DNA of 35,501 bases. Origin: an uncultured Rubritalea sp. (GTDB lineage: Bacteria > Verrucomicrobiota > Verrucomicrobiia > Verrucomicrobiales > Akkermansiaceae). The stretch lies in assembly GCA_937132085.1 (NCBI GenBank), contig CAKZNV010000160.1:1-35501 (forward strand). The letters run 5' to 3'. The position numbers and the translations under genes were made by a program. Below the pieces are notes generated by a model, which was not told the origin of the DNA, did no database searches, and was given only the letters and a program-made list of their open reading frames with translations. Below, in pieces: positions 4,577-17,611 of the stretch (the first letter of the stretch is position 1; each line of letters starts with the position of its first letter).

Positions 4577-6277
4577 CTAAGAGCTGACCTCTTGATCAGT
4601 TTGGAAAAAGTTTCGCATGCGCTTGTGCATGTCATCGTAAAAGCCTTTCTTGATCGCTTCTAGCATCGCTATCTTCTCTGGTGTGGCAGTGGATTCATCT
4701 ATCTTTTCAGAGAGCATCTTTTCATTAAATGACTTTTCTAACTCAATCATAGAGTCCAGAAATGCTCTTGCCGCTCTCGATTGTTCGACTCCATCCACTA
4801 GCGCATTCTCTAGGTTCTTATTTCTTGTTAGAGCGGTGAGCTCACCTTGATTATGGTTCGTCATGTATTGCGCATGATTCTGTAAAAAGCTTTGGTGGTC
4901 ATTATCAAACATGACTTCATCTCTATCTAACAGTTTGTCATAAGGCCCAGCTTTACAGAAGAATTTCACCATCAGAGGGATCGTGTCCACTAGCATGAAA
5001 AGGGCTGTGAGAATGATGTAAGTCATGTAAGCGAACTCGCCTCCTTCTTCACCTTGTTCGAAGAGGTAGTGCAGCGCTAGAGTCTGAGTGAGGATGTCTT
5101 TACGAGGTTCTGATGCGATAGCTAGTAAGCTGGCTCTCTCATCTGCGGCTACAGAGGCGGCACCTTGTTGCAGACGATCTAGCTCTTTGAGCATTCCATC
5201 TATTTGGATTTTTATGGTGTCACGGATTTGGTTTTGTTGAGTGACGAATTGCTCGGCCTGATCTGCATCTACTTTCTGACGCAGCACAGCGAGACGAGCT
5301 TCCTCGATAGCGCTTTTAGCTTTTTCGGCTTGTAGCAAAACTTCGTAGGCAGAGATGGCAGATTTCTTAGCATCAGAGACCGATGTGAGCATGTTGCTTT
5401 TTTCTTCAGTCAGCTGCTTGAGCTGCTCGCCTAGACGTGAAGCTTCGGTGCGGCGCCATGCTAGTTGGTCGTCACGGATACTTCTAGCTCTTGGTCCAAG
5501 ACCACGAATTCCACTACGCTGGCCATTGACTTCTTTTTCAAACTGCTCCTGCCAAGACGCTAGCTCGGTTTGGATCTTAGTGTATTGAGGACCTAGCTCG
5601 GCGACTTGCTCATCGATAGCATCAATGCGAGTGGTGAAAGTTCTAGTGGCGTCAGTGATCGATTGATCAAGTGCCGCTTGTTTCTCTGGTGAGAGCCCAG
5701 GGATAGGAGGTTCTTTCTGGTCATCTTGCAGGAGGAACTTCGCTTGGAAGGTTTCATTCCAGCGGTCACGTTGCTTCTTAATCGCTTCTTCCTGAGAGCG
5801 GACACCAGCCATGGCTGTATCTTTTTGTTCTGTGAAATAGACTCTAGTCTTCTGGATCTCAGCGGAGCGTGCTGTCTCGACTACGCCAGTGATCGTGTCT
5901 TTGAATAAAAGCAAGACGAGTGGGTGAGCAATCGTGAGACCCATCAGTCCAGCTACGGTGAGACGCAGAGCGAATTGGCCGAGTTTTTTCAGTGGTGAGA
6001 GGAATGCACGGTAGCTAGCGAGGAGTGCTCGGTCGATCGTGAGAATAATAAATGCCCAGACTAGCGCTACCGGAAGAATGACCCAGTAATTATCTGTTAG
6101 AGTGGAGAGAGCGTAGGCACAAGCGATGAATGCGAATGCGCAGGGAACCAGAACAGTAGCTCCAAAAGCGACATACTTACGCTGCTCCCAATTCGGGCAT
6201 TGCTCCAGTGTCTCTGTTCCTGCCGCAGAGAGCCAGAAGAACATACGCTTCCAGAGTGAGGGTTTCTGATTTTTCAT
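4577..6277 (-). CDS. DUF4407 membrane protein with long coiled coil
   Basis: This 566-aa protein matches the DUF4407 architecture. Three membrane segments lie near the N-terminus (about 37-58, 64-83 and 103-125), with the family-like stretch VWAFIILTIDRALLASYRAF between the second and third. A long charged helical and coiled-coil region runs from about 135 to 375. A fourth membrane segment is at about 416-438, and the tail is soluble. The function of DUF4407 is not established. The shape suggests a membrane-anchored scaffold or sensor whose coiled-coil domain lies on one side of the membrane. The gene is convergent with the repeat protein and has a 465-base AT-rich upstream gap. Its nearest neighbours to the right are the unusual cassette and the TIR gene. 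Confidence 0.8.
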   Translation of the reverse strand: MKNQKPSLWKRMFFWLSAAGTETLEQCPNWEQRKYVAFGATVLVPCAFAFIACAYALSTLTDNYWVILPVALVWAFIILTIDRALLASYRAFLSPLKKLGQFALRLTVAGLMGLTIAHPLVLLLFKDTITGVVETARSAEIQKTRVYFTEQKDTAMAGVRSQEEAIKKQRDRWNETFQAKFLLQDDQKEPPIPGLSPEKQAALDQSITDATRTFTTRIDAIDEQVAELGPQYTKIQTELASWQEQFEKEVNGQRSGIRGLGPRARSIRDDQLAWRRTEASRLGEQLKQLTEEKSNMLTSVSDAKKSAISAYEVLLQAEKAKSAIEEARLAVLRQKVDADQAEQFVTQQNQIRDTIKIQIDGMLKELDRLQQGAASVAADERASLLAIASEPRKDILTQTLALHYLFEQGEEGGEFAYMTYIILTALFMLVDTIPLMVKFFCKAGPYDKLLDRDEVMFDNDHQSFLQNHAQYMTNHNQGELTALTRNKNLENALVDGVEQSRAARAFLDSMIELEKSFNEKMLSEKIDESTATPEKIAMLEAIKKGFYDDMHKRMRNFFQTDQEVSS

Positions 6278-6742
6278 AAGGTATTTATATTAAATACTCT
6301 TACTGTGGTCAAATTCTATCATTTATCTTTGGTTTTCAATCCACCAATTCTACATACTTTTTTAAGAGGTTGGACCTTCTGTGAAGCTCTCTATTTATGA
6401 GGTGAAAAGCCAGCTCTCTCCTTAAGCTAATCCCTTTGCCTTTTAGTTTTCTTCATCACAATTATAATTTTTTTCATTTCAAGGGAATGGTCTACTAATC
6501 CTCTAACGGGAATGATATGGTAAAGATATATTAAATTTATGTTGGGTCTGTGGCGGAATATATTTTCCTCCTTGCGTTTCCCTAGAAATCTAGTCTGTGT
6601 GTGCTTGAGATATTTTCACTGAGAAACTTGCATTGACTCAGTAATGAGTTTTATGATTATATGTTTGTCTGATATGTTTTTTGTATAGCGTTTTTTATAA
6701 AACGCCCCATTAATCCTGAATAAATAAAATTAAACCATAACC
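6278..6742. other. 465-base AT-rich intergenic region between divergent genes
   Basis: No coding signature, tRNA or transposon end was found here. It must hold the promoters for the DUF4407 gene (minus) and the three-gene cassette (plus). Small palindromes are present near the right end: ACTCA-gtaa-TGAGT at 6636-6649 and GCGTTTT-ttat-AAAACGC at 6688-6705. Either could be an operator. A TTGACT at 6633-6638 has no convincing -10 partner. Base composition changes to AT-rich at about this point. Confidence 0.6.
6688..6705. promoter_or_regulatory. Possible operator palindrome upstream of the three-gene cassette
   Basis: The arms GCGTTTT and AAAACGC are separated by 4 bases and lie 37 bases before the ATG of the 412-aa gene. 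This position would suit a repressor site or a 5' leader hairpin. It is short and could be chance in AT-rich DNA. Confidence 0.25.
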
Positions 6743-7981
6743 ATGAACAGCGAAACTCTAGTGCCTCACTTTGAAGAAGCCACGAAAAGAAATAGAAAAG
6801 ACCATGTAATCCTTGTGAAAATCGTCTACCTCATGAAATGGGGTGTTCTCTTTAACCAAACAGGCAAAGTAAAAAAACGTGTTTTAGATGAAATTGAAGA
6901 AATGTCCTATCTGAACAAAGTCGTGTCAGGAGCTACTCTTTCATCATATTTTGGTCAGCAGGCAATCCAATCTACAATTGGATTATACAGTCGAGCATTG
7001 CAAGGCCGAACGTTTGCTCATGTAAATCGTAACAAGTCCCTTTCAGAGGAAGAGATTGAGGATTTATTATTTGATCAGGATTATCTAATAGGAACAAATA
7101 AGAACAATCTGGCCACAGAAAATGAGATTATAGAAATACAGCTAAAAAATGTCTATTCTGCGGTAGTTTTAAATGACCAAGCTGTATTGAGGAAAACAGT
7201 ATTTGATTTAATGGAAAATATCTGGAGACAAATCGATTACTTCGCTCCTTTATCCAGAGATCTAAGGACTATTTCAGCTTATTGTTTATCAAAAGGAAAG
7301 AACGGCCTTGGTGAGAGAGTGGGTGAACTTAATGTTAATGTTTCTCGTTCAATTAGGAATTGGATTGGATACAGCACTGGGGCATTGACTGTATTATTTC
7401 AGCATCTTTGGTATGACCCGATACTAGATGATTACTTTTCAGAATCTGCGCTAGAGACAATTCAAAATATACATAAGATCGCCTTTGACAGAGATAACTT
7501 ACCTGACGGAACAAATCTGGACGTTAAAGGAGCCTCAGAGCAACCATTGGGCAGAGTGATTGAAACGAAAGGATTCGTTAAACAAATTAACACATTCCGA
7601 AACTCTGCAGGAGAGTTAATTAGTCGCTTCTTACTCTCTGACCCTTCAAGCTTGGCTGAAATATGGGTGCAGGGGAAATATGTGCATTTCGAGCATATTG
7701 GTATAGCGTCTGGGACTTATGTTACCTTGAGTGGTGAATTAAAGGATGGTGTGATTGATGGAGAAAACGCCAAATACCTTCAGGTAGGCAAATTTTCGAT
7801 GAATGAATTGAAAGATAATAACTGGAAGCTAAGGCTGCTAGATATTGCTCGCCCTTATTTTGATAGTTACCGTGGGAATTTATTAATTTCTTGGTCTCTC
7901 TCTCCTCATCGCAGATATGGAGACAGTGTAAGTAAACTTGGTGCCTCTGAAATGCTATTTAGACCTCTTGTAGGGAGCTAA
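6743..7981 (+). CDS. Uncharacterised 412-aa protein, possible OB-fold-like segment; first gene of low-GC cassette
   Basis: I do not recognise this protein. It has 412 aa, with no signal peptide or membrane segment. The N-terminal two thirds look helical. The segment about 268-350 looks all-beta: GRVIETKGFVKQIN, then SRFLLSDPSS, EIWVQGKYV and GTYVTLSGEL. That pattern of short strands with a GxxxxxG-V start resembles the OB folds of nucleic-acid-binding proteins, but this is my reading without a profile search. The coding sequence is visibly AT-rich (17 G/C in the 60 bases 7081-7140) compared with housekeeping genes here, which suggests horizontal acquisition. A coiled-coil gene follows after 57 bases and a TGT-like gene after that, all on the same strand. 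Confidence 0.7.
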   Translation: MNSETLVPHFEEATKRNRKDHVILVKIVYLMKWGVLFNQTGKVKKRVLDEIEEMSYLNKVVSGATLSSYFGQQAIQSTIGLYSRALQGRTFAHVNRNKSLSEEEIEDLLFDQDYLIGTNKNNLATENEIIEIQLKNVYSAVVLNDQAVLRKTVFDLMENIWRQIDYFAPLSRDLRTISAYCLSKGKNGLGERVGELNVNVSRSIRNWIGYSTGALTVLFQHLWYDPILDDYFSESALETIQNIHKIAFDRDNLPDGTNLDVKGASEQPLGRVIETKGFVKQINTFRNSAGELISRFLLSDPSSLAEIWVQGKYVHFEHIGIASGTYVTLSGELKDGVIDGENAKYLQVGKFSMNELKDNNWKLRLLDIARPYFDSYRGNLLISWSLSPHRRYGDSVSKLGASEMLFRPLVGS

Positions 7982-8038
7982 TAGATAAGAAGTTTTTTAC
8001 GTAATGTTTAAATTAAGATTTAACTTAAAAACAATAAA

Positions 8039-8554
8039 ATGGATGATATAGAAGAGTTGAGAAGGCAATTAGGAGAAATTAACGAGTCCTTAAGGGAGAA
8101 AAATGAAAACCATGCTGAGAAAAATCAAGAACTCGATGGATTGAAACAGGACCTTGAGGAAAGACGTAATTCTGAGTATAGGCCAAGCACTATGGCGATT
8201 TTAAACGACACGGTAGCAGAGGAAAAAAAAATCTGGAAACAAGATAAAAAACAAGCGATCAGTGATAAAAAGGATCAAATAGATGCTGTCGAAGATGAAA
8301 TTAAAGACATCGAACAAGGTATCAAAGATTTACAAAAAGACAGGGATACAAAAGAGCAGGAGATCAAAGATCATCCTGACTATTCTAATTCTGATCAAAC
8401 ATTTGAATATAATAGTTTGGATGGTGATGAGATCGCGGACATGGAATCTGACTGGGGAGAAGAGGGAGAGGGGCACCATGGTGACAATCCTGTAGATGAA
8501 GATGATGTCAGAAAACATTTTACTATAGAATGGGGCGATCTAACCAGGCTATAA
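8039..8554 (+). CDS. 171-aa coiled-coil protein with acidic tail; middle gene of cassette
   Basis: No family was recognised. Residues 1 to about 115 are almost entirely charged heptad-like helix, for example ELRRQLGEINESLREK and later DAVEDEIKDIEQGIKDL, typical of a long coiled coil. The C-terminal 50 residues are strongly acidic (DGDEIADMESDWGEEGEG) and end in a short, more ordered-looking tail. It has no Cys, signal peptide or membrane segment. Its position between the 412-aa gene (57-base gap) and the TGT-like gene (25-base gap) suggests one transcript. It may link the two other products as an adaptor, or act as a nucleic-acid mimic through its acidic tail. Both ideas are inference. Confidence 0.7.
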   Translation: MDDIEELRRQLGEINESLREKNENHAEKNQELDGLKQDLEERRNSEYRPSTMAILNDTVAEEKKIWKQDKKQAISDKKDQIDAVEDEIKDIEQGIKDLQKDRDTKEQEIKDHPDYSNSDQTFEYNSLDGDEIADMESDWGEEGEGHHGDNPVDEDDVRKHFTIEWGDLTRL

Positions 8555-8579
8555 TCCCAACTAATTTTCAAACCATACA

Positions 8580-10016
8580 ATGATAAAAATCCCTAAATTT
8601 AAACGAGATAAGTATATTTTCATCTCAAATCTTAAAGATGTTACTGCGAATCCTGATTACCCGATCACTATGCGTAGGGATGGCTATTTGTTATCCTCTC
8701 AATACACGAATCGTTCCCTTGAGGCACTTGCCAAATTGGTAAAAGCGCGAAGGAACCTCCTTGTAAGTGATAATGGAAATTTCACACGGATGAAATCCAT
8801 TACTTCAAGATTTAGCCTACGTGGAGAGGCCATTTTGGCTCTAGCTATTGAGGAGGTTAAGAAAGACGACAAAGTTAAGCACGAGACTCTAGAGCAACGG
8901 GTTGATCTGATACTAGAGGTCGAGAAAGCTTGTGCTCAGGAATTAGCTGAAATGGATTTCGAGGCAATCATCCGAAAGCAATTAAGCATCAATCCTGATT
9001 ACATGATTGCCATGGAGGATCTAACTATACCAGTTATGATGATGCTAGGATTGATGCATCCAGTCTTTGAGCCTTCAGCTAATAATGTATCGAAGCACCA
9101 GAACAATTCAATTGAGCTCTATAAAACCCAATCTTCTGGAAAAATGGGAAGTGCGGATGGGCTTTCAGAGGTTGCTAAGTTTCATGTATTGCATGCTTAT
9201 GACTATGCTAGCGCCTTTCAAGGAGCAAAGGAGATCAGAAAAAAATTGAGCCCTGAAGGAATTGCAATCAGCTATGGAGGTCCAATGAAAAGTAGAAGGT
9301 GGGTTACTTCTCTGAAGTTTGGAGATAAGGTGGAAACTTTCAAAGAAAAACTACCTGAGCCCTACCTCGCTGCGACAGCCTTAACTTTGGGAGCAGCAAA
9401 AGGACTTGAATCGGGTGTTCCTGTCCATATTCTAGGGGTAGGGACTCCAATCCTTATTGCTATGATCTCTACTCTTTTGCCTGAATCGTCTGCTATTAGC
9501 ATCGATTCAACAGCTCCCTTCAAAGATGCGAATGTGGGGACTCTTTACGGGTCTAAAAGTGCTTTTATAAAGATGGACCAATATAAAGTGGCTGCCTACT
9601 CGTTGATCAACAACAGTCCTTTCACATCTAGAACTCCATTCTTTAAGCAATTTGAACACGATTTTCCTTCAAACTGGGATGCTCTCCGTGCTGAACTAGG
9701 AGTTACAACCAACTCTAAAATCAAAGATATCGCCTCGATACTAAAAAAGGAGACAGAATTAACAGAAAAGTATATTCCCTTTTTTTCTAAAATGCGTTCA
9801 GGAAAAGATGAAATGATGAAGCGCCTGCGAATGGACAGGGCTGGTCATAACTTTTGGATATTGAGAAATATTTGTGTTTCAGTTCGTGATAGAATGGATG
9901 ACAATGATGACTTGAATAAGTGGATTGAATATCAAGTAAGTCGCTATTGCTCTGTAGCAAATAGGAAGTGGGCCGAAGCGGTTAAGCATTGCTTCGAATT
10001 ATCTAAAAAATATTAA
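8580..10016 (+). CDS. Divergent tRNA-guanine transglycosylase (TGT) superfamily protein lacking the Cys zinc motif
   Basis: This 478-aa protein shows the TGT landmarks in order. VSDNGNF at 62-68 matches the TDSGGF motif (Asp64 for the active-site Asp). AMEDLTIP at 144-151 matches the FDECTP region (Asp147). SYGGP at 231-235 matches QGG. HILGVGTP at 283-290 followed by IDSTAP (Asp309) matches the YLMGVGTP...DCVxPT stretch with the nucleophile, and GTLY at 320-323 matches GTLF. GHNFWILRN (His423) matches the TIHNLYFYL region with the zinc His. The distance from SYGG to Asp309 is close to that in bacterial TGT. The CxCxxC zinc ligands are absent. TGT enzymes exchange guanine for a 7-deazaguanine in tRNA, and DpdA homologues do so in DNA. 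The substrate here is unknown, and no queuosine genes are nearby. The family call is by motif reading only. Confidence 0.72.
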   Translation: MIKIPKFKRDKYIFISNLKDVTANPDYPITMRRDGYLLSSQYTNRSLEALAKLVKARRNLLVSDNGNFTRMKSITSRFSLRGEAILALAIEEVKKDDKVKHETLEQRVDLILEVEKACAQELAEMDFEAIIRKQLSINPDYMIAMEDLTIPVMMMLGLMHPVFEPSANNVSKHQNNSIELYKTQSSGKMGSADGLSEVAKFHVLHAYDYASAFQGAKEIRKKLSPEGIAISYGGPMKSRRWVTSLKFGDKVETFKEKLPEPYLAATALTLGAAKGLESGVPVHILGVGTPILIAMISTLLPESSAISIDSTAPFKDANVGTLYGSKSAFIKMDQYKVAAYSLINNSPFTSRTPFFKQFEHDFPSNWDALRAELGVTTNSKIKDIASILKKETELTEKYIPFFSKMRSGKDEMMKRLRMDRAGHNFWILRNICVSVRDRMDDNDDLNKWIEYQVSRYCSVANRKWAEAVKHCFELSKKY

Positions 10017-10197: not shown

Positions 10198-11091
10198 ATG
10201 AACATGTCCCCGATGTATATCTTTCTTCTCTGTTCGGCTGTCAGCCTAGCATTGCTTCTAGTAGTCTATTGTAGAGCAGCGATGAAGTCTCGTGGTAAAG
10301 GTGGTGCGAAGTTGTTGGTGCCTGCGCTTTCCGCTTTGTTGGCTTTCGTTGGAGTTGTGTTCTTATTTCAAAAGAGCATTCACACTGAGAAAGAACATGA
10401 AGATATGGATCTTCGGTTTAGTAAATTACAGGGATTTAACAGAACGGTAGAGCGGCTGCAGCATCATTTGAATGAAGCCAATGCGATAGACTCATACCAT
10501 CGCTATCTGAAAAGGATGGAGCTGGAAGATACTGACGAAGCGCTCATCACATATCTGCAGCAGACCGCAGGATTATCATCTGAATCAGGGAATAGACAAA
10601 CCACTATTGTCGGTTTTAGTAGCACTCTTGATAAGGAATTGAGCCAAGTGACTCCAGACGGACTATTAGGAACTAGCACTTGGAATATCATAAGAGGCTT
10701 GGTCGCAGATTATCAAGAACGTGAGTTAAACAACCCTGAGTTTAGAGATGATCCTAAGCAGGTGATTACTCCCAAGCAGATAGATGAGGCCTTGCACTGG
10801 ATCATCAACAAAGGAGAAGGTTCTAACACTCCATTGGGGGCGGATCGTCGGATTCTCAATGACACTCTGACATTTTTATTTCAATTCCTTCATGAGACAG
10901 TCGGCTTTCCAGATGAGGATCGGCTAGGGCGGGGTATTGGTATAGAGAATCGGACATATCAAGAGACGAGTATCTGTAAGGCTGTGAAGCTCTATCAGAA
11001 AAAGTATAACAAAAATCATAAATCTACTTTTTTGGTCGAGGATGGCGGAATGGGGCCTAATACCATTCTAGCTATCTCAAGAGGTAAATGA
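10198..11091 (+). CDS. Two-helix membrane protein with peptidoglycan-binding-like motifs
   Basis: This 297-aa protein has membrane segments at about 7-26 and 39-58. They are joined by a short basic loop (CRAAMKSRGKGGAK), so the positive-inside rule places the loop in the cytosol and the large C-terminal part outside the membrane. Two stretches resemble the core of peptidoglycan-binding domain type 1 (DG-xx-G-xx-T): PDGLLGTSTWNII around 153-165 and EDGGMGPNTILAI around 281-293. The second is preceded by KAVKLYQKKY, like the AV-xx-YQ helix of that fold. The function is unknown; a cell-wall contact role is inferred. The TIR gene starts 28 bases downstream on the same strand, so the two are likely co-transcribed. 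Confidence 0.65.
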   Translation: MNMSPMYIFLLCSAVSLALLLVVYCRAAMKSRGKGGAKLLVPALSALLAFVGVVFLFQKSIHTEKEHEDMDLRFSKLQGFNRTVERLQHHLNEANAIDSYHRYLKRMELEDTDEALITYLQQTAGLSSESGNRQTTIVGFSSTLDKELSQVTPDGLLGTSTWNIIRGLVADYQERELNNPEFRDDPKQVITPKQIDEALHWIINKGEGSNTPLGADRRILNDTLTFLFQFLHETVGFPDEDRLGRGIGIENRTYQETSICKAVKLYQKKYNKNHKSTFLVEDGGMGPNTILAISRGK

Positions 11092-11119: not shown

Positions 11120-11740
11120 ATGAACACACTCATCATATTCACAGTCATCATGCTAATCATTAGCTTGGCGTCTTGGTATTTCGTTTATTCGGGGTGCTCA
11201 TCTAAGGTGGTGCAGGGGGACGCGAACCCTCTGACTAATGAAACGCAACAACTCACTAAACCTGATGGGAAAATATTTATTTCTTATCGCCGAGTTGATT
11301 CAGCTGACATTACAGGACGTCTCTTTGACCGCCTTAAGAAGCATTATGGTGCTTGCGTTTTTAAGGATGTAGATTCTATCCCAGTCGGGGTGGATTTCAG
11401 AGATCATATCAGCCAGGCTCTCGATGAGGCTGAAATTTTCATCTGTGTGATCGGTCCGAGTTGGCTCAGGTCTCAGGACGATGTAGCAGGCCCTAGAGTA
11501 AAAAAGGACGATCATGTCATGCTCGAAATAGAGTCCGCTTTAGATAAGAAGATTCCGATTATTCCAATACTGGTCCGCAATGCAGTCATGCCAGAGAAGC
11601 ATGAACTCACTGAAGAAACTATGGAGATCACCTACCGTAACGCTACTATGCTAAGGCCTGATCCAGATTTCAACACAGATTGCTCCCGGATTTTTGCAGC
11701 CATTGAGGAAATACTTACCTCCAGCGGAGTGAGCGGGTAA
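11120..11740 (+). CDS. Membrane-anchored TIR domain protein
   Basis: This 206-aa protein has one N-terminal hydrophobic segment (about 4-23). No positive charge precedes it and a Lys follows, which favours an N-out, C-in orientation with a cytosolic TIR domain. The TIR domain covers about 50-200. It starts with KIFISYRRVDSAD, then VFKDVDSIPVGVDF (BB-loop region, about 80-93), ICVIGPSWL, and DHVMLEIESAL. Glu136 in that last stretch aligns with the catalytic Glu of NAD-consuming TIR domains, followed by IPIIPILV. Bacterial TIR domains often cleave NAD+ or make cyclic ADP-ribose signals in antiphage defence, while others are scaffolds. A fixed membrane anchor is less usual for defence TIR effectors. 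The partner is probably the upstream wall-binding-like membrane protein. Confidence 0.88.
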   Translation: MNTLIIFTVIMLIISLASWYFVYSGCSSKVVQGDANPLTNETQQLTKPDGKIFISYRRVDSADITGRLFDRLKKHYGACVFKDVDSIPVGVDFRDHISQALDEAEIFICVIGPSWLRSQDDVAGPRVKKDDHVMLEIESALDKKIPIIPILVRNAVMPEKHELTEETMEITYRNATMLRPDPDFNTDCSRIFAAIEEILTSSGVSG

Positions 11741-11836: not shown

Positions 11837-13276
11837 ATGACAAAATCCAATGTAGAAGACACATTTAATGTGTTCCTAGAAAATCAAAAATGCGCCATCA
11901 GGCTGATTCAATCTATGAGTAGTTTGATTTATGAAAAGTCTGTAGAGCTTACTTTATTTAAAAATTCTCTCCGTGAGGAAGGTGTGTCTGAGATGCTAAA
12001 GCTGCATAAGAAAAACCTGACGACTAAGGAGGTGAGTGTGGCTCTAACAGCAGAGATTGCAGCTCAGTTAGAGAAGATGGATTTGAGGCCAGTGACCATC
12101 GATATTGGAAGGTTGGCTGGTGCTTGGACTGAGGCGGATGATGGAACGCAGACATTGGCTGAGTTTATGCAAGAGTATCTTAAAGAGGCTCTGGGCGCAG
12201 GGAATAGTAAGATGACACCTAAGGATGTGGTTCTTTTTGGCTTTGGTAGAATCGGTAGATTGGTCTGTCGTGAGCTGATTGAGCAGGCTGGTCGAGGTCG
12301 GCAGCTGAGGTTGAAGGCGATCGTGGTGCGTAGTGTGGATGCAGATAGTATTCAGAAGCGTGCGGCTCTGATCAATAACGACTCAGTGCATGGACAGTTC
12401 GCAGCGGATGTGACTGTGGATCAAGAGAATCATTTGTTGATCATCAATGGTCAGGTGGTGAAATTTATCGCTGCGTCTTGTCCTGAAGAGATCGATTATG
12501 AAAAGCATGGGATAGAGGATGCTCTGGTGATCGATAACACGGGGGCTTATACTTCTAAGGAAGAGCTAGCGAGACACTTGAAGGCCAAAGGGGCTAAGAA
12601 GGTGATTTTGACTGCTCCGGGTAAGGATACTAAGAATGTGGTGTTTGGAGTGAATGAGGGTGATCTGGATCTTGATAACGATGAGATTTTCACTGCGGCA
12701 TCATGCACTACTAATGCGATTTCGCCAGTGTTGCAGGTGATTGAACGAGAGTTCGGTATTGAGAAGGGACACGTAGAAACGATTCATGCGTATACCAATG
12801 ATCAAAATCTGTTAGATAACATGCATAAGAAATATCGCCGTGGCAGATCTGCTGCGATGAATATGGTGATCACTTCTACAGGGGCAGGAAAGGCTGTTTC
12901 ACAGATTATCCCTAGTCTACTAGGCAAGCTGACGTCGAATGCTGTTAGAGTGCCTTGTCCGAATGGTTCGTTGGCAATTATGAATTTAAAGCTAGGTAAG
13001 CAGGTCACCGTGGAGGAGGTGAATAGAGTGATTCGTAGGGAAGCTGAAGATGGCAAGCTGGCGAATCAGATTAACTTTTCTACCGATCCTGAAACAGTGT
13101 CTTCTGACATTATCGGCAATGTATGTTGCTCGGTGTTTGATAGCAGTGCTACGATTGTCTCGCCAGATAGCGGTAGCGTGGTTCTCTATGTCTGGTATGA
13201 TAATGAGTATGGATACAGCATGCAGGTGGTGAGGCTAGCGAAGTATGTTTCCCATGTTTTTCGCCAGGTGTTTTAG
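11837..13276 (+). CDS. gap: Glyceraldehyde-3-phosphate dehydrogenase, long form with N-terminal extension
   Basis: This enzyme oxidises glyceraldehyde 3-phosphate with NAD(P)+ and phosphate in central carbon metabolism. The protein is 479 aa, about 140 residues longer than ordinary GapA. The extra part is a helical N-terminal region (1 to about 125). The catalytic core then follows: GFGRIGR at 135-141, the active-site Cys290 in ASCTTN, and His317 in TIHAYT. C-terminal NPVRVP-like (NAVRVPCPNGS) and YDNEYGYS-type (WYDNEYGYSMQ) signatures are also present. Similar long GAPDHs of about 480 aa are known in Pseudomonas and other groups and may work mainly in gluconeogenesis; that role is inferred here. 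The gene has its own terminator and looks monocistronic. Confidence 0.92.
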   Translation: MTKSNVEDTFNVFLENQKCAIRLIQSMSSLIYEKSVELTLFKNSLREEGVSEMLKLHKKNLTTKEVSVALTAEIAAQLEKMDLRPVTIDIGRLAGAWTEADDGTQTLAEFMQEYLKEALGAGNSKMTPKDVVLFGFGRIGRLVCRELIEQAGRGRQLRLKAIVVRSVDADSIQKRAALINNDSVHGQFAADVTVDQENHLLIINGQVVKFIAASCPEEIDYEKHGIEDALVIDNTGAYTSKEELARHLKAKGAKKVILTAPGKDTKNVVFGVNEGDLDLDNDEIFTAASCTTNAISPVLQVIEREFGIEKGHVETIHAYTNDQNLLDNMHKKYRRGRSAAMNMVITSTGAGKAVSQIIPSLLGKLTSNAVRVPCPNGSLAIMNLKLGKQVTVEEVNRVIRREAEDGKLANQINFSTDPETVSSDIIGNVCCSVFDSSATIVSPDSGSVVLYVWYDNEYGYSMQVVRLAKYVSHVFRQVF

Positions 13277-13811: not shown

Positions 13812-15410
13812 TTAGACTTGGATAAGAGTTTTCTCTGTCTCAGCATCGATGATAGCGAAGCGCTCACGGTGGAGTGCTGTGTCGGTGCGGAAGATGAGTC
13901 TGCCGTTGTGACTACGCTCTAGCTCTACGAGGATCTTAGAGTCCTGTTGCTTGAATCTGTTAAGAACTTCTGGGTTTACCATGACGATGAGATCGCCGTG
14001 TTCTTCCTGCTCTTGGTTACGCTGAATGAGTGTGTTGAGTGTGCGCTGGATTTCTACAGACATAGTCATAGTAGTCTTCACTCTAGCTTTACCTTGGCAG
14101 TATGGGCATGGCTCATACATGGTGTCACGGAGTGACTCATTGAGTCTCTGACGTGTCATTTCCATGAGGCCAATCGCAGAGATCTGCATGACCTGAGTCT
14201 TGGCTTTGTCACGCTTGAGGCGTTCCTTCATGACTCTGTAAACAGCCTGCTGGTCACGGCGGTGACGCATGTCGATGAAGTCTACTACTACGAGTCCACC
14301 GATGTTTCTGAGGCGGAGCTGACGTGCTACTTCTTCAGCTGCTTCGAGGTTAGTCTCAGTGATCATTTTCTCCACGTCCTTAGAACCTTTGTTTCGGCCG
14401 GTGTTGACGTCGATAGCGATAAGAGCTTCTGTCTCATCGATGACTAGGTAGCCTCCACATGGAAGCCAGACTTGACGGAGGAATGCTTCGTCGATCTTTC
14501 TCTGAATGCCGATCTTCTCGAAGATTGACTGCTTAGATGGTAGATACTGGATACGGCGTTTCGCTCTGCGGGAAATTTTTCCTGCTACTTCACGCATGAA
14601 TTCTGTGGTCTCTAGATCGTCACAGATGACCTGATCAACATCATCAGTGAGGAAGTCTCTAGCGGTGCGTTCGATGAGTCCTGGCTCTTGGAATGCGATG
14701 ACTGGTGCTGGCTTCTCGTCACGCTTAGTCTCGATTTCATTCCACTGTTCCATGAGCATGGCGAGGTCACGGACAAAGTGGCGAGCACGCTGACCGATAG
14801 ACACTGTTCTCATGATGATGCCCATTCCATCTGGAACTTGGAGCTTCTGCATGATGCGGCGTAGACGCTGGCGTTCCTTAGGATCATCGATCTTACGGGA
14901 GATGCCGAACTGCTCTGAGAATGGCATGAGGACGAGGTAACGTCCAGCGAGTGAGATGTTAGTGGTGACACGTGGGCCTTTGTTTCCGATAGGTCCTTTA
15001 GATACCTGAATGAGGATCTCTGAGCCGATTGGGTAGATGCTTGGGATGTCTTTAGAAGTGATTTTTTTCTGCTTCTTTCTTGGCTTGCCTTCACGCTGGA
15101 TCTCTTCGAGTCCTCCGTCGAGTGCCGCTGGGATAGCATCCCAGAAGTGGAGGAATGCGTTTTTGTCCATGCCGATGTCTACGAACATAGCTTTGAGGCC
15201 TTGCTCGATGTTTTTGACAGTGCCTTTGAAGATTCCACCGACGATGTTGGCTTCGCCTTCACGCTCTACGTCATATTCTTCTAGGCTGTTATGTTCTAAC
15301 AGAGCGACTCGACGTTCGAGCTTTTCTGAGTTGATAACGAGTGTGACGCCTTTACTAGGGTCTGGTGTGCCGGCTCCGAGGCCGAAAGCTTTTTTGATTT
15401 TTCCGATCAT
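13812..15410 (-). CDS. rng: Ribonuclease G/E family endoribonuclease
   Basis: This 532-aa protein has the Rne/Rng catalytic layout. An S1-type RNA-binding domain near the start (about 38-155) contains a basic insert (RKKQKK). The 5'-sensor/RNase H-like part follows. The catalytic Mg2+ Asp residues are Asp334 (AIDVNTG) and Asp377 (VVVDFIDM). The zinc-link motif CPYC is at 435-438. No long C-terminal degradosome scaffold is present, so it is RNase G-like in size. In E. coli rng (cafA) also lies beside mreBCD, where it matures 16S rRNA 5' ends, so the neighbourhood supports the call. The start at 15410 gives a normal N-terminus (MIGKIKKAFG). mrdA lies 71 bases upstream. Confidence 0.93.
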   Translation of the reverse strand: MIGKIKKAFGLGAGTPDPSKGVTLVINSEKLERRVALLEHNSLEEYDVEREGEANIVGGIFKGTVKNIEQGLKAMFVDIGMDKNAFLHFWDAIPAALDGGLEEIQREGKPRKKQKKITSKDIPSIYPIGSEILIQVSKGPIGNKGPRVTTNISLAGRYLVLMPFSEQFGISRKIDDPKERQRLRRIMQKLQVPDGMGIIMRTVSIGQRARHFVRDLAMLMEQWNEIETKRDEKPAPVIAFQEPGLIERTARDFLTDDVDQVICDDLETTEFMREVAGKISRRAKRRIQYLPSKQSIFEKIGIQRKIDEAFLRQVWLPCGGYLVIDETEALIAIDVNTGRNKGSKDVEKMITETNLEAAEEVARQLRLRNIGGLVVVDFIDMRHRRDQQAVYRVMKERLKRDKAKTQVMQISAIGLMEMTRQRLNESLRDTMYEPCPYCQGKARVKTTMTMSVEIQRTLNTLIQRNQEQEEHGDLIVMVNPEVLNRFKQQDSKILVELERSHNGRLIFRTDTALHRERFAIIDAETEKTLIQV

Positions 15411-15481
15411 AATGTTTTTGATGTTATAAAGTTAATGGTTAGATTGTTGATTGAATGTTTTGTTAGATTGTGTGTGTGAAA

Positions 15482-17611
15482 TTATTCGACTGGGATGGCT
15501 CTAGGGATGACCTTTTGTGATCCACGTTCGTCGATAGTTGGTGTGATATTTGGTTTAATGTTTGGTGTATAAAAAATAGGGTCTTTGTCTTTACGAACGA
15601 TTTCGATGGCTTCTGCTTCGTCGCCAGTTTCTCCGTTATTACCGTAGATTGAGTTAAGGGGGTTGATACTAGGGATTTTAATTTCTTCGATGAGGTCTTG
15701 GTGACCGATGTATGGTTTACTAGAGACGAGTTTGTGTTTCTTGCCTTCTTCTATCTCGAATAGTCCAGAGAGGATGAGATTGACGAGTGGGCCAGCGACC
15801 TTTCCGCCGCTTCCGCCACGTTTGACTGCTACAATGACTACGTAGCGAGGATTCTCATAAGGAGCGAATGCTGCTGTCCATGCGACGTGGGTTTTGACGC
15901 CATCATCTCTAGTCTGCGCTGTGCCAGTTTTGGCTCCGATGATCATGCCTTTAGGACAAGCTCTTCTAGCGGTTCCGCCTATTGCAGTGGCAGCGAGTCT
16001 CATGCCGTAGCGAATGGTCGTGAGGTGGCCTTCTCCGATTCCTTCTTGGAGCAAATTCAGTTTAGCTGGTGCTGCGTAGCTTTTGGTTTTGTTAGTGAAA
16101 CTGTTAGTTACCTTGCTGATGATACGAGGTTGGTAGTAGTCGCCGCCATTGGCGACAGCTGAGAAGATAGCCGCCATTTGTAGAGGAGTGGCTTGGCAAT
16201 CGCCTTGACCGATTCCCATCATACCTGTGTGGGCGTCTGACATACGTGCTTCAGGGTATCTTTTCTTCCAACGGACACTACCTGGGACAGTGCCTCGTTG
16301 TTCTTGTGGAAGGCGGATGCCTGTCTTGCTACCGAGTCCGAGCATTTGGTAAACTTCGACTACTTTCTTGTATCCGATCGTATTACAAATCTTCATGAAG
16401 AATGGATTGCATGAGCGCTGGAGTGCTTCAGCGAGAGCGAGAGTTCCGTGCCCCACAGTCTTCCAGCATTTGATTTTTAGTTTACCGTAGGCGACGTGTC
16501 CTGGGCAGTTGCAGTTATAGCGGTGCATGCCGTATTTACAGCCAGCGATGGCGGCAGGTATTTTCAGCGTGGAGCCTGGGGTGAGACCTGTGATAGCACG
16601 GTTGATGAAAGGAGCTGCGGTGTTGTCTGTGTAGAATGCGTAGCGTTTGGTGCTGATGCTTGGGGTGAAGTCGTTCGGGTCGTAGTTTGGCACAGATGCC
16701 ATGGCTAGGACTTCGCCAGTGTTCGGGTCCATGACGATGGCGGCGGCTTTTCCTGCTTGGCGGAGTGAGTTTTCCACTAGCTGCTGGATGTGTGTGTCTA
16801 TAGTGAGGTAGACGTCTGAGCCTGGTCCTGGTGGTTGGTAGTCAGTGACACCGAGGACTTTGTTTTTATCGTTCTTGAGGATCTTTTTGATCCCTTCTCT
16901 ACCAGTGAGCTCTTCGTTCATGCTCTGCTCTATACCAGCGATGCCTGTGGAGTCTCCTATGTAGTGGTTGAAGTTGCCTGTGATCTTGCCTTTTTCCCAC
17001 TGCTTAGTGTAGCCTAGGACATGGGAGGCTGTGGCGCCGAATGGATACTTTCTGGCTGGGGCTGCATCTATATAGACGCCTGGTAGCTGGATGTTTTGCT
17101 CGGCAAATTTAGCAAATTCATCATAAGAGAGATCTTTTCTGAATACGAATGGAACGAGTCCTCCGTGGGTGCTGTAATGAGCCTCCATAGCTTGGGAGCT
17201 GTATTTAGCATCTAGTCCGATGTATGCGAGGTAGGGGCGGATGGTTTTGTTGACCATACCTGCAATGTCAGTTTTTTTGCTCTTTACTGGTGACCCCTTG
17301 TAGTTGACTAAGATTTCACGTTTGAGGGTTTCTCCGTATTCTGCGATGTAGTTTTTGTGGATTTCAGCGAGGTTGAAATAGACGATGTAACTCTGGTTAT
17401 TCTGAGCGAGTGTGATGCCGTTGCGGTCTTTGATTTCACCACGGATGCCAGGTTCACGGATAGTTTCCTCTTTGTTAGAAGGGACTTTAGCGCTGTAGTA
17501 TTCCTTCTTCTCTATCTGCATCTCATAGAGACGAGAGAGCAAGACTCCTGTCCCTAATAGAACGAAGAGGGTGAGGAAGTAGAGTCTGTATCTGTAGCGT
17601 GGAGTGTGCAT
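15482..17611 (-). CDS. mrdA: Penicillin-binding protein 2 (elongasome transpeptidase)
   Basis: This 709-aa class B PBP cross-links peptidoglycan during cell elongation with MreBCD and RodA. One N-terminal membrane anchor (about 10-27) is followed by the non-catalytic pedestal domain with RGEIKDRNG at about 57-65. The transpeptidase domain shows all three active-site motifs: STLK with Ser347, SCN at 400-402, and KTG at 561-563. The Cys-containing stretch after the catalytic motif (CNCPGH...CW) resembles that of other PBP2 proteins. The C-terminal tail of about 90 residues is rich in acidic and Pro residues and probably disordered. It lies 24 bases after mreD. No rodA gene is visible in the window. 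Confidence 0.94.
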   Translation of the reverse strand: MHTPRYRYRLYFLTLFVLLGTGVLLSRLYEMQIEKKEYYSAKVPSNKEETIREPGIRGEIKDRNGITLAQNNQSYIVYFNLAEIHKNYIAEYGETLKREILVNYKGSPVKSKKTDIAGMVNKTIRPYLAYIGLDAKYSSQAMEAHYSTHGGLVPFVFRKDLSYDEFAKFAEQNIQLPGVYIDAAPARKYPFGATASHVLGYTKQWEKGKITGNFNHYIGDSTGIAGIEQSMNEELTGREGIKKILKNDKNKVLGVTDYQPPGPGSDVYLTIDTHIQQLVENSLRQAGKAAAIVMDPNTGEVLAMASVPNYDPNDFTPSISTKRYAFYTDNTAAPFINRAITGLTPGSTLKIPAAIAGCKYGMHRYNCNCPGHVAYGKLKIKCWKTVGHGTLALAEALQRSCNPFFMKICNTIGYKKVVEVYQMLGLGSKTGIRLPQEQRGTVPGSVRWKKRYPEARMSDAHTGMMGIGQGDCQATPLQMAAIFSAVANGGDYYQPRIISKVTNSFTNKTKSYAAPAKLNLLQEGIGEGHLTTIRYGMRLAATAIGGTARRACPKGMIIGAKTGTAQTRDDGVKTHVAWTAAFAPYENPRYVVIVAVKRGGSGGKVAGPLVNLILSGLFEIEEGKKHKLVSSKPYIGHQDLIEEIKIPSINPLNSIYGNNGETGDEAEAIEIVRKDKDPIFYTPNIKPNITPTIDERGSQKVIPRAIPVE

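Follow-up and report, generated by a model that had tools for sequence, protein, structure and literature searches.

Dpd gene clusters carry TGT homologues (PMC6884629), and a TGT together with a GNAT protein is found in a subset of the BRC (BREX-related capture) systems, which are defined by a HerA/FtsK translocase with PglZ, DUF6079 and DUF4007 (PMC12839542). We analysed a window of 35,501 nucleotides (the whole stretch of DNA) containing a three-gene cassette, A-B-C, whose third gene encodes a probable remote TGT-superfamily protein. Among the main window genes, Pfam recognised no Dpd partner genes, no genes for 7-deazaguanine synthesis and none of the BRC genes PglZ, DUF6079, HerA/FtsK, DUF4007 and GNAT. 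The initial annotation had called the cassette undescribed, which held true within the profile libraries and the literature searched; no description of the A-B-C trio was found in that literature. Our preferred reading, to which we assign a probability of roughly 0.45, is that A-B-C is a rare, horizontally moved unit built around C, that within the TGT superfamily C forms a new remote branch, and that it carries out base exchange or base release on nucleic acid.

The three open reading frames lie on the same strand where the initial annotation had placed them, with 57 bases between A and B (7981 to 8039) and 25 bases between B and C (8554 to 8580). Gene A (6743..7981, + strand) encodes a protein of 412 aa with a helical, divergent N-terminal part, a possibly OB-like C-terminal domain (about residues 250-350) and a conserved tail (SWSLSPH...GASEMLF). 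Gene B (8039..8554, + strand) encodes a charged, coiled-coil-like protein of 171 aa with an acidic tail. Gene C (8580..10016, + strand) encodes a protein of 478 aa, with D64 as the putative general base and D309 as the putative nucleophile. The cassette had been described as AT-rich, in agreement with GC contents of 0.384 (A), 0.382 (B) and 0.403 (C) against 0.451 for the window. The GC3 of the cassette genes was 0.33-0.38; outside the cassette, GC was 0.454 in the TIR gene, the next but one downstream, and 0.494 in hppA.

Directly upstream of the trio and divergent from it is a gene for a DUF4407 membrane protein (4577-6277, - strand, E 1e-50). Downstream, a gene for a 297-aa protein with a hydrophobic N-terminal part (10198-11091) precedes the gene for a TIR-domain protein (11120-11740, + strand), which has an N-terminal hydrophobic segment. 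The top NCBIfam match of the TIR protein was Thoeris type III ThcB4 (E 8e-12, below the cut-off), and PADLOC gave SAVED-TIR and ThsB. The following gene (11837-13276, + strand) encodes a long GAPDH (PRK08289 type) that is extended at the N terminus and is present in addition to the usual GAPDH; it had only one close relative (in genome G006, 60% identity) among the 30 genomes searched. Housekeeping genes for GAPDH, RNase E/G, PBP2, MreC and MreB were identified with Pfam to the right of the cassette. The genome from which the window comes (G000) is 4.46 Mb and 98.7% complete, and has no clear Shine-Dalgarno sequences; the finished genomes of its relatives are 2-3 Mb. These traits suggest a Verrucomicrobium of the Akkermansiaceae type.

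The blocks of C follow the order found in TGT: SDNGNF (residues 63-68; 8769..8786, + strand), HAYDYASA (205-212), YGGP (232-235), HILGVGTP (283-290), SIDSTAPFKDANVG (307-320) and GHN (422-424). The stretch from HILGVGTP to SIDSTAPFKD (residues 283-316; 9426..9527, + strand) contains the putative catalytic Asp309. MAFFT alignment of C with TGT matched SDNGNF to DSGGF and GVGTP to GLGTP, placed D309 in the nucleophile block and paired the two HN motifs, and the HAYDYASA block was also aligned. In the alignment with DpdA the D64, GG and D309 blocks were aligned, SDNGNF falling on DSGAF. The spacing from D309 to G320 in C equals the D-to-G spacing of D-C-V-x-P-T-R-x-A-R-x-G. These active-site blocks are nearly invariant in the four C homologues that we know (see below), the exceptions being F68W and G234A in locus L080 and Y232F in locus L078. 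As an ordered motif set, the TGT-like signature claimed for C was recovered in all four homologues and in 26 of the 29 Verrucomicrobial TGTs sampled, but in none of 200,000 shuffles of C, and so exceeds chance; because the expression was composed after C had been seen, these counts lend support without amounting to a blind test. The zinc site CxCxxC...H is absent in all four C proteins, and since the zinc pattern is likewise missing from 26 of the 29 sampled Verrucomicrobial TGTs, it is a poor discriminator.

Single-sequence searches with C gave no significant match in Pfam, PADLOC, PHROGs, NCBIfam or the PDB sequences, and the matches in PHROGs and the PDB sequences were at chance level. Sequence profiles from Pfam and the PDB likewise gave no match to C; PF01702 matched neither C nor the cores of two homologues at E <= 1. 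The best family match was NCBIfam TIGR00432 (archaeosine TGT), with E 0.084 over residues 270-297 only. Comparison by hhalign with alignments of TGT and of DpdA was not significant, and the Dpd models of PADLOC did not match C. A DpdF match of the A protein of L078 (E 0.058) was at chance level.

Structure prediction with AlphaFold from the single sequence was of no use (pLDDT 34), and from the four sequences, template-free, it gave a weak model (pLDDT 53, pTM 0.36). Foldseek with this weak model placed TGTs at ranks 1, 3 and 4 among 350,542 PDB chains (prob 0.98, 0.92 and 0.95). VIA-align returned eukaryotic, archaeal and bacterial TGTs in nearly all of the top 50 rows at Z 6.3-7.5, values which are middling by the scale of the tool (Z < 8) and may reflect a common arrangement. 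A fold search in BFVD gave no interpretable match. The lack of a TGT fold in C had been named beforehand as the result that would count against the annotation; the comparisons by Foldseek and VIA-align point, on the weak model, to TGT. Four agreeing lines, that is, the blocks, the signature, Foldseek and VIA-align, thus lead to the TGT-type reading, none of them being decisive alone. C very probably belongs to the TGT superfamily, in which it most likely forms a new, remote branch; it falls outside PF01702, the curated TGT family, and does not pass the Dpd tests.

Relatives of C were sought by a scan with degenerate patterns over genomes of 84,980 species. The patterns were chosen through alignments with artificial companion rows carrying conservative substitutions, which were used for pattern choice only, and tblastn with the real protein served to confirm the matches. 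Three full-length homologues with 50-55% identity were found, so the known members are four, and as the scan requires an exact pattern, divergent members will have been missed. The hosts are Desulfosediminicola flagellatus of the Thermodesulfobacteriota (L078), a Crocinitomicaceae MAG (L079) and a Prolixibacteraceae MAG (L080). The order of A, a small gene in the B slot and C is kept in all four loci, in three phyla. Whether the trio occurs together in other genomes had also been set beforehand as a refuting test, and co-occurrence was found in L078, L079 and L080.

An alignment of the four C homologues has 157 invariant columns out of 482. The two Bacteroidota copies (L079 and L080) share 51.6% identity and the window copy shares 55.5% with the Thermodesulfobacteriota copy, pairs from different phyla ranging over 47-55%. 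The divergence of C does not track taxonomy; that the identity between the Bacteroidota copies is no higher than that between copies of different phyla speaks for horizontal movement. A first scan of genome contigs with the single C sequence was empty. No relative was found by tblastn in plasmids and phages, nor in viral contigs, degenerate-pattern scans included. There was likewise none in 58 genomes of relatives or in 384 and 388 genomes of the own class and the own phylum, respectively. No further true match appeared in 395 Bacteroidia, 345 phylum-level relatives of Desulfosediminicola and 354 genomes from the order to which L080 belongs. It means that the cassette is rare, samples of 345-395 genomes holding no other true member. 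A match in G1654 (E 0.0019) was rejected as chance, because the locus, L085, carries an unrelated large protein.

Only in L079 (9347-10000) and L080 (9338-10000), C is fused to an extra N-terminal domain of about 220 residues with a conserved LYPIWDSxIN motif. The domain has a weak DUF6308 match (E 2e-5 in L080, below the curated cut-off) and no meaningful PDB match, and DUF6308 was not mentioned in the literature searched. It is possibly a nucleic-acid-binding module.

The A proteins of the window, L078, L079 and L080 are homologous over the C-terminal region of about 170 aa (BLAST E 1e-27 to 4e-5), their N-terminal parts being divergent, and three of the four share the tail SWSxSP...GA[SG]E[MIL]LF. 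The OB-like nature proposed for A is consistent with the data but weakly so: sub-threshold matches to DUF1980_C (E 0.038), tRNA_anti-like (E 0.11) and RecG (E 0.04) fell in the homologous region in three different A proteins. We take an OB-like C-terminal domain in A as a lead from the sequence.

The coiled-coil character claimed for gene B holds for the window protein, which is highly charged and coiled-coil-like with a net charge of -27, but not as a conserved part of the cassette, since unrelated small proteins fill the B slot elsewhere. BLAST detected no similarity between the B proteins of different loci, the only related ones being tandem paralogues in L080. The B-slot proteins of the relatives have 99-128 aa and are mostly Cys-rich, with 5-11 Cys in L078, L079 and L080, and three of these four proteins have a hydrophobic middle (L078, L079 and the paralogue L080a). 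The window B is soluble and strongly acidic, with neither a hydrophobic segment nor Cys. The tandem paralogues of L080 (8464-8775 and 8830-9129; BLAST E 6e-7) have 11 and 8 Cys, and one of them has the hydrophobic middle.

The initial annotation had noted that a route to 7-deazaguanine was missing, and at genome level this can be said more firmly: the sole match to the QueC family (PF06508) in the genome is the GMP synthase GuaA. The genome has, separate from C, a canonical TGT (C6), which is its sole PF01702 match. With this TGT present and QueC absent, the host probably obtains its queuosine precursor by salvage, which may be of queuine or preQ1. Without QueC, preQ0 made de novo is an unlikely base for C in the window host.

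The neighbours of the trio differ from locus to locus. In L078 an SduA (Shedu, DUF4263)-like gene (15085-16263) lies downstream of the cassette, at a distance of about 3.6 kb. In L080 a gene for an MBL-fold protein (5018-6589), with weak LmuA, RTasMBL and 6A-MBL matches, lies about 430 bases upstream of A. The neighbours in L079 look like housekeeping genes. Shedu, MBL or TIR genes are thus near three of the four loci, with a different gene at each, and may be there by coincidence; the neighbourhood would agree with an accessory region or a defence context.

In the mechanism that we propose for the unit, Asp309 of C would attack a nucleoside in nucleic acid at the anomeric carbon and displace the base, Asp64 would serve as acid/base, and another base, or water, would take the place of the displaced one. 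A would bind or present the nucleic acid by means of its OB-like domain. B may be a fast-evolving partner, effector or target, wholly different between lineages. The combination of a conserved enzyme with divergent partners, the low GC, the patchy distribution and the nearby Shedu, MBL and TIR genes fits modification or defence better than housekeeping modification of tRNA. A fuller version, that A-B-C is a new modification or defence system with a third TGT branch, a base other than de novo preQ0, an OB-like guide subunit and coupled hypervariable small proteins, is tentative, and on balance we doubt it. If it were true, a third branch of base-swapping enzymes would stand beside tRNA TGT and DpdA within a compact three-gene unit, and it would raise the question of which base is inserted where preQ0 is not made. 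The hypervariability of the B slot would point to an arms race.

Several other explanations were considered. C could be a TGT-like enzyme for tRNA or another RNA, making a physiological or stress modification with no role in defence, and A and B would be factors for specificity or assembly. OB-like domains are common in tRNA-binding proteins, which agrees with this, as do the tRNA-acting TGTs as closest solved structures and the TGT-like HN block retained in C. Yet a very patchy distribution across phyla, unrelated B proteins and the presence of a canonical TGT elsewhere in the genome are unlike a housekeeping enzyme for tRNA, and we regard this explanation as unlikely.

The trio might also be a conflict module, in which C acts on host or phage nucleic acid, removing or exchanging bases as a toxin, and the small B is an effector or immunity factor. 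No toxin or antitoxin family could be recognised, and the window B lacks the hydrophobic segment and the Cys, while the small and hypervariable B proteins, with a hydrophobic middle in L078, L079 and L080a and tandem paralogues in L080, and the SduA, MBL and TIR genes nearby are what such a module might show. We think it rather improbable.

It is less probable still that C is a TGT-like or other TIM barrel whose substrate is a small molecule or protein B rather than a nucleic acid, with a resemblance to TGT in fold and motif only. The non-significant profile-profile comparisons with TGT and DpdA and the departure of C from TGT around the base-recognition blocks point in this direction, together with the UxaE epimerases at Foldseek ranks 2, 5 and 6. 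The prob values of UxaE (0.20-0.47) are however below those of TGT (0.92-0.98), and several invariant residues of C coincide with catalytic positions of TGT. A larger local unit made up of the trio and the adjoining 10198 and TIR (11120) genes was also considered. These genes are on the same strand, and no strong terminator was detected between C and 10198, but such a unit is very improbable given the 181-base gap after C, the higher GC downstream and the absence of both genes beside the trio in all three other loci.

Returning to our preferred reading of a unit around a new TGT-superfamily branch, C can be compared with the known systems as follows. With TGT, the queuine and archaeosine tRNA-guanine transglycosylases (PF01702; PDB 7ovs, 6h45 and 1j2b), it has in common the block order D-x-G-x-F, GG, G-x-G-x-P, D-x-x-x-P-x-[RK] and HN, and among PDB entries TGTs match the predicted fold best. 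It differs in having DNGNF where TGT has DSGGF and DST where TGT has DCV, in lacking a PF01702 match and CxCxxC, and in being encoded in the A-B-C cassette. With DpdA it shares the DS[ST] nucleophile motif, a DSGAF-like base motif and the His in the H-x-x-G-x-G block, but has a longer C-terminal part with the TGT-like HN. Judged by its motifs, C is a mixture, with DS[ST] and the His before GxG as in DpdA, and GxGxP, P-x-[RK] and HN as in TGT. The likeness to BRC, compared by description (PMC12839542), is the recruitment of a TGT homologue into a proposed defence locus; the partners of C, unlike those in BRC, are A and B.
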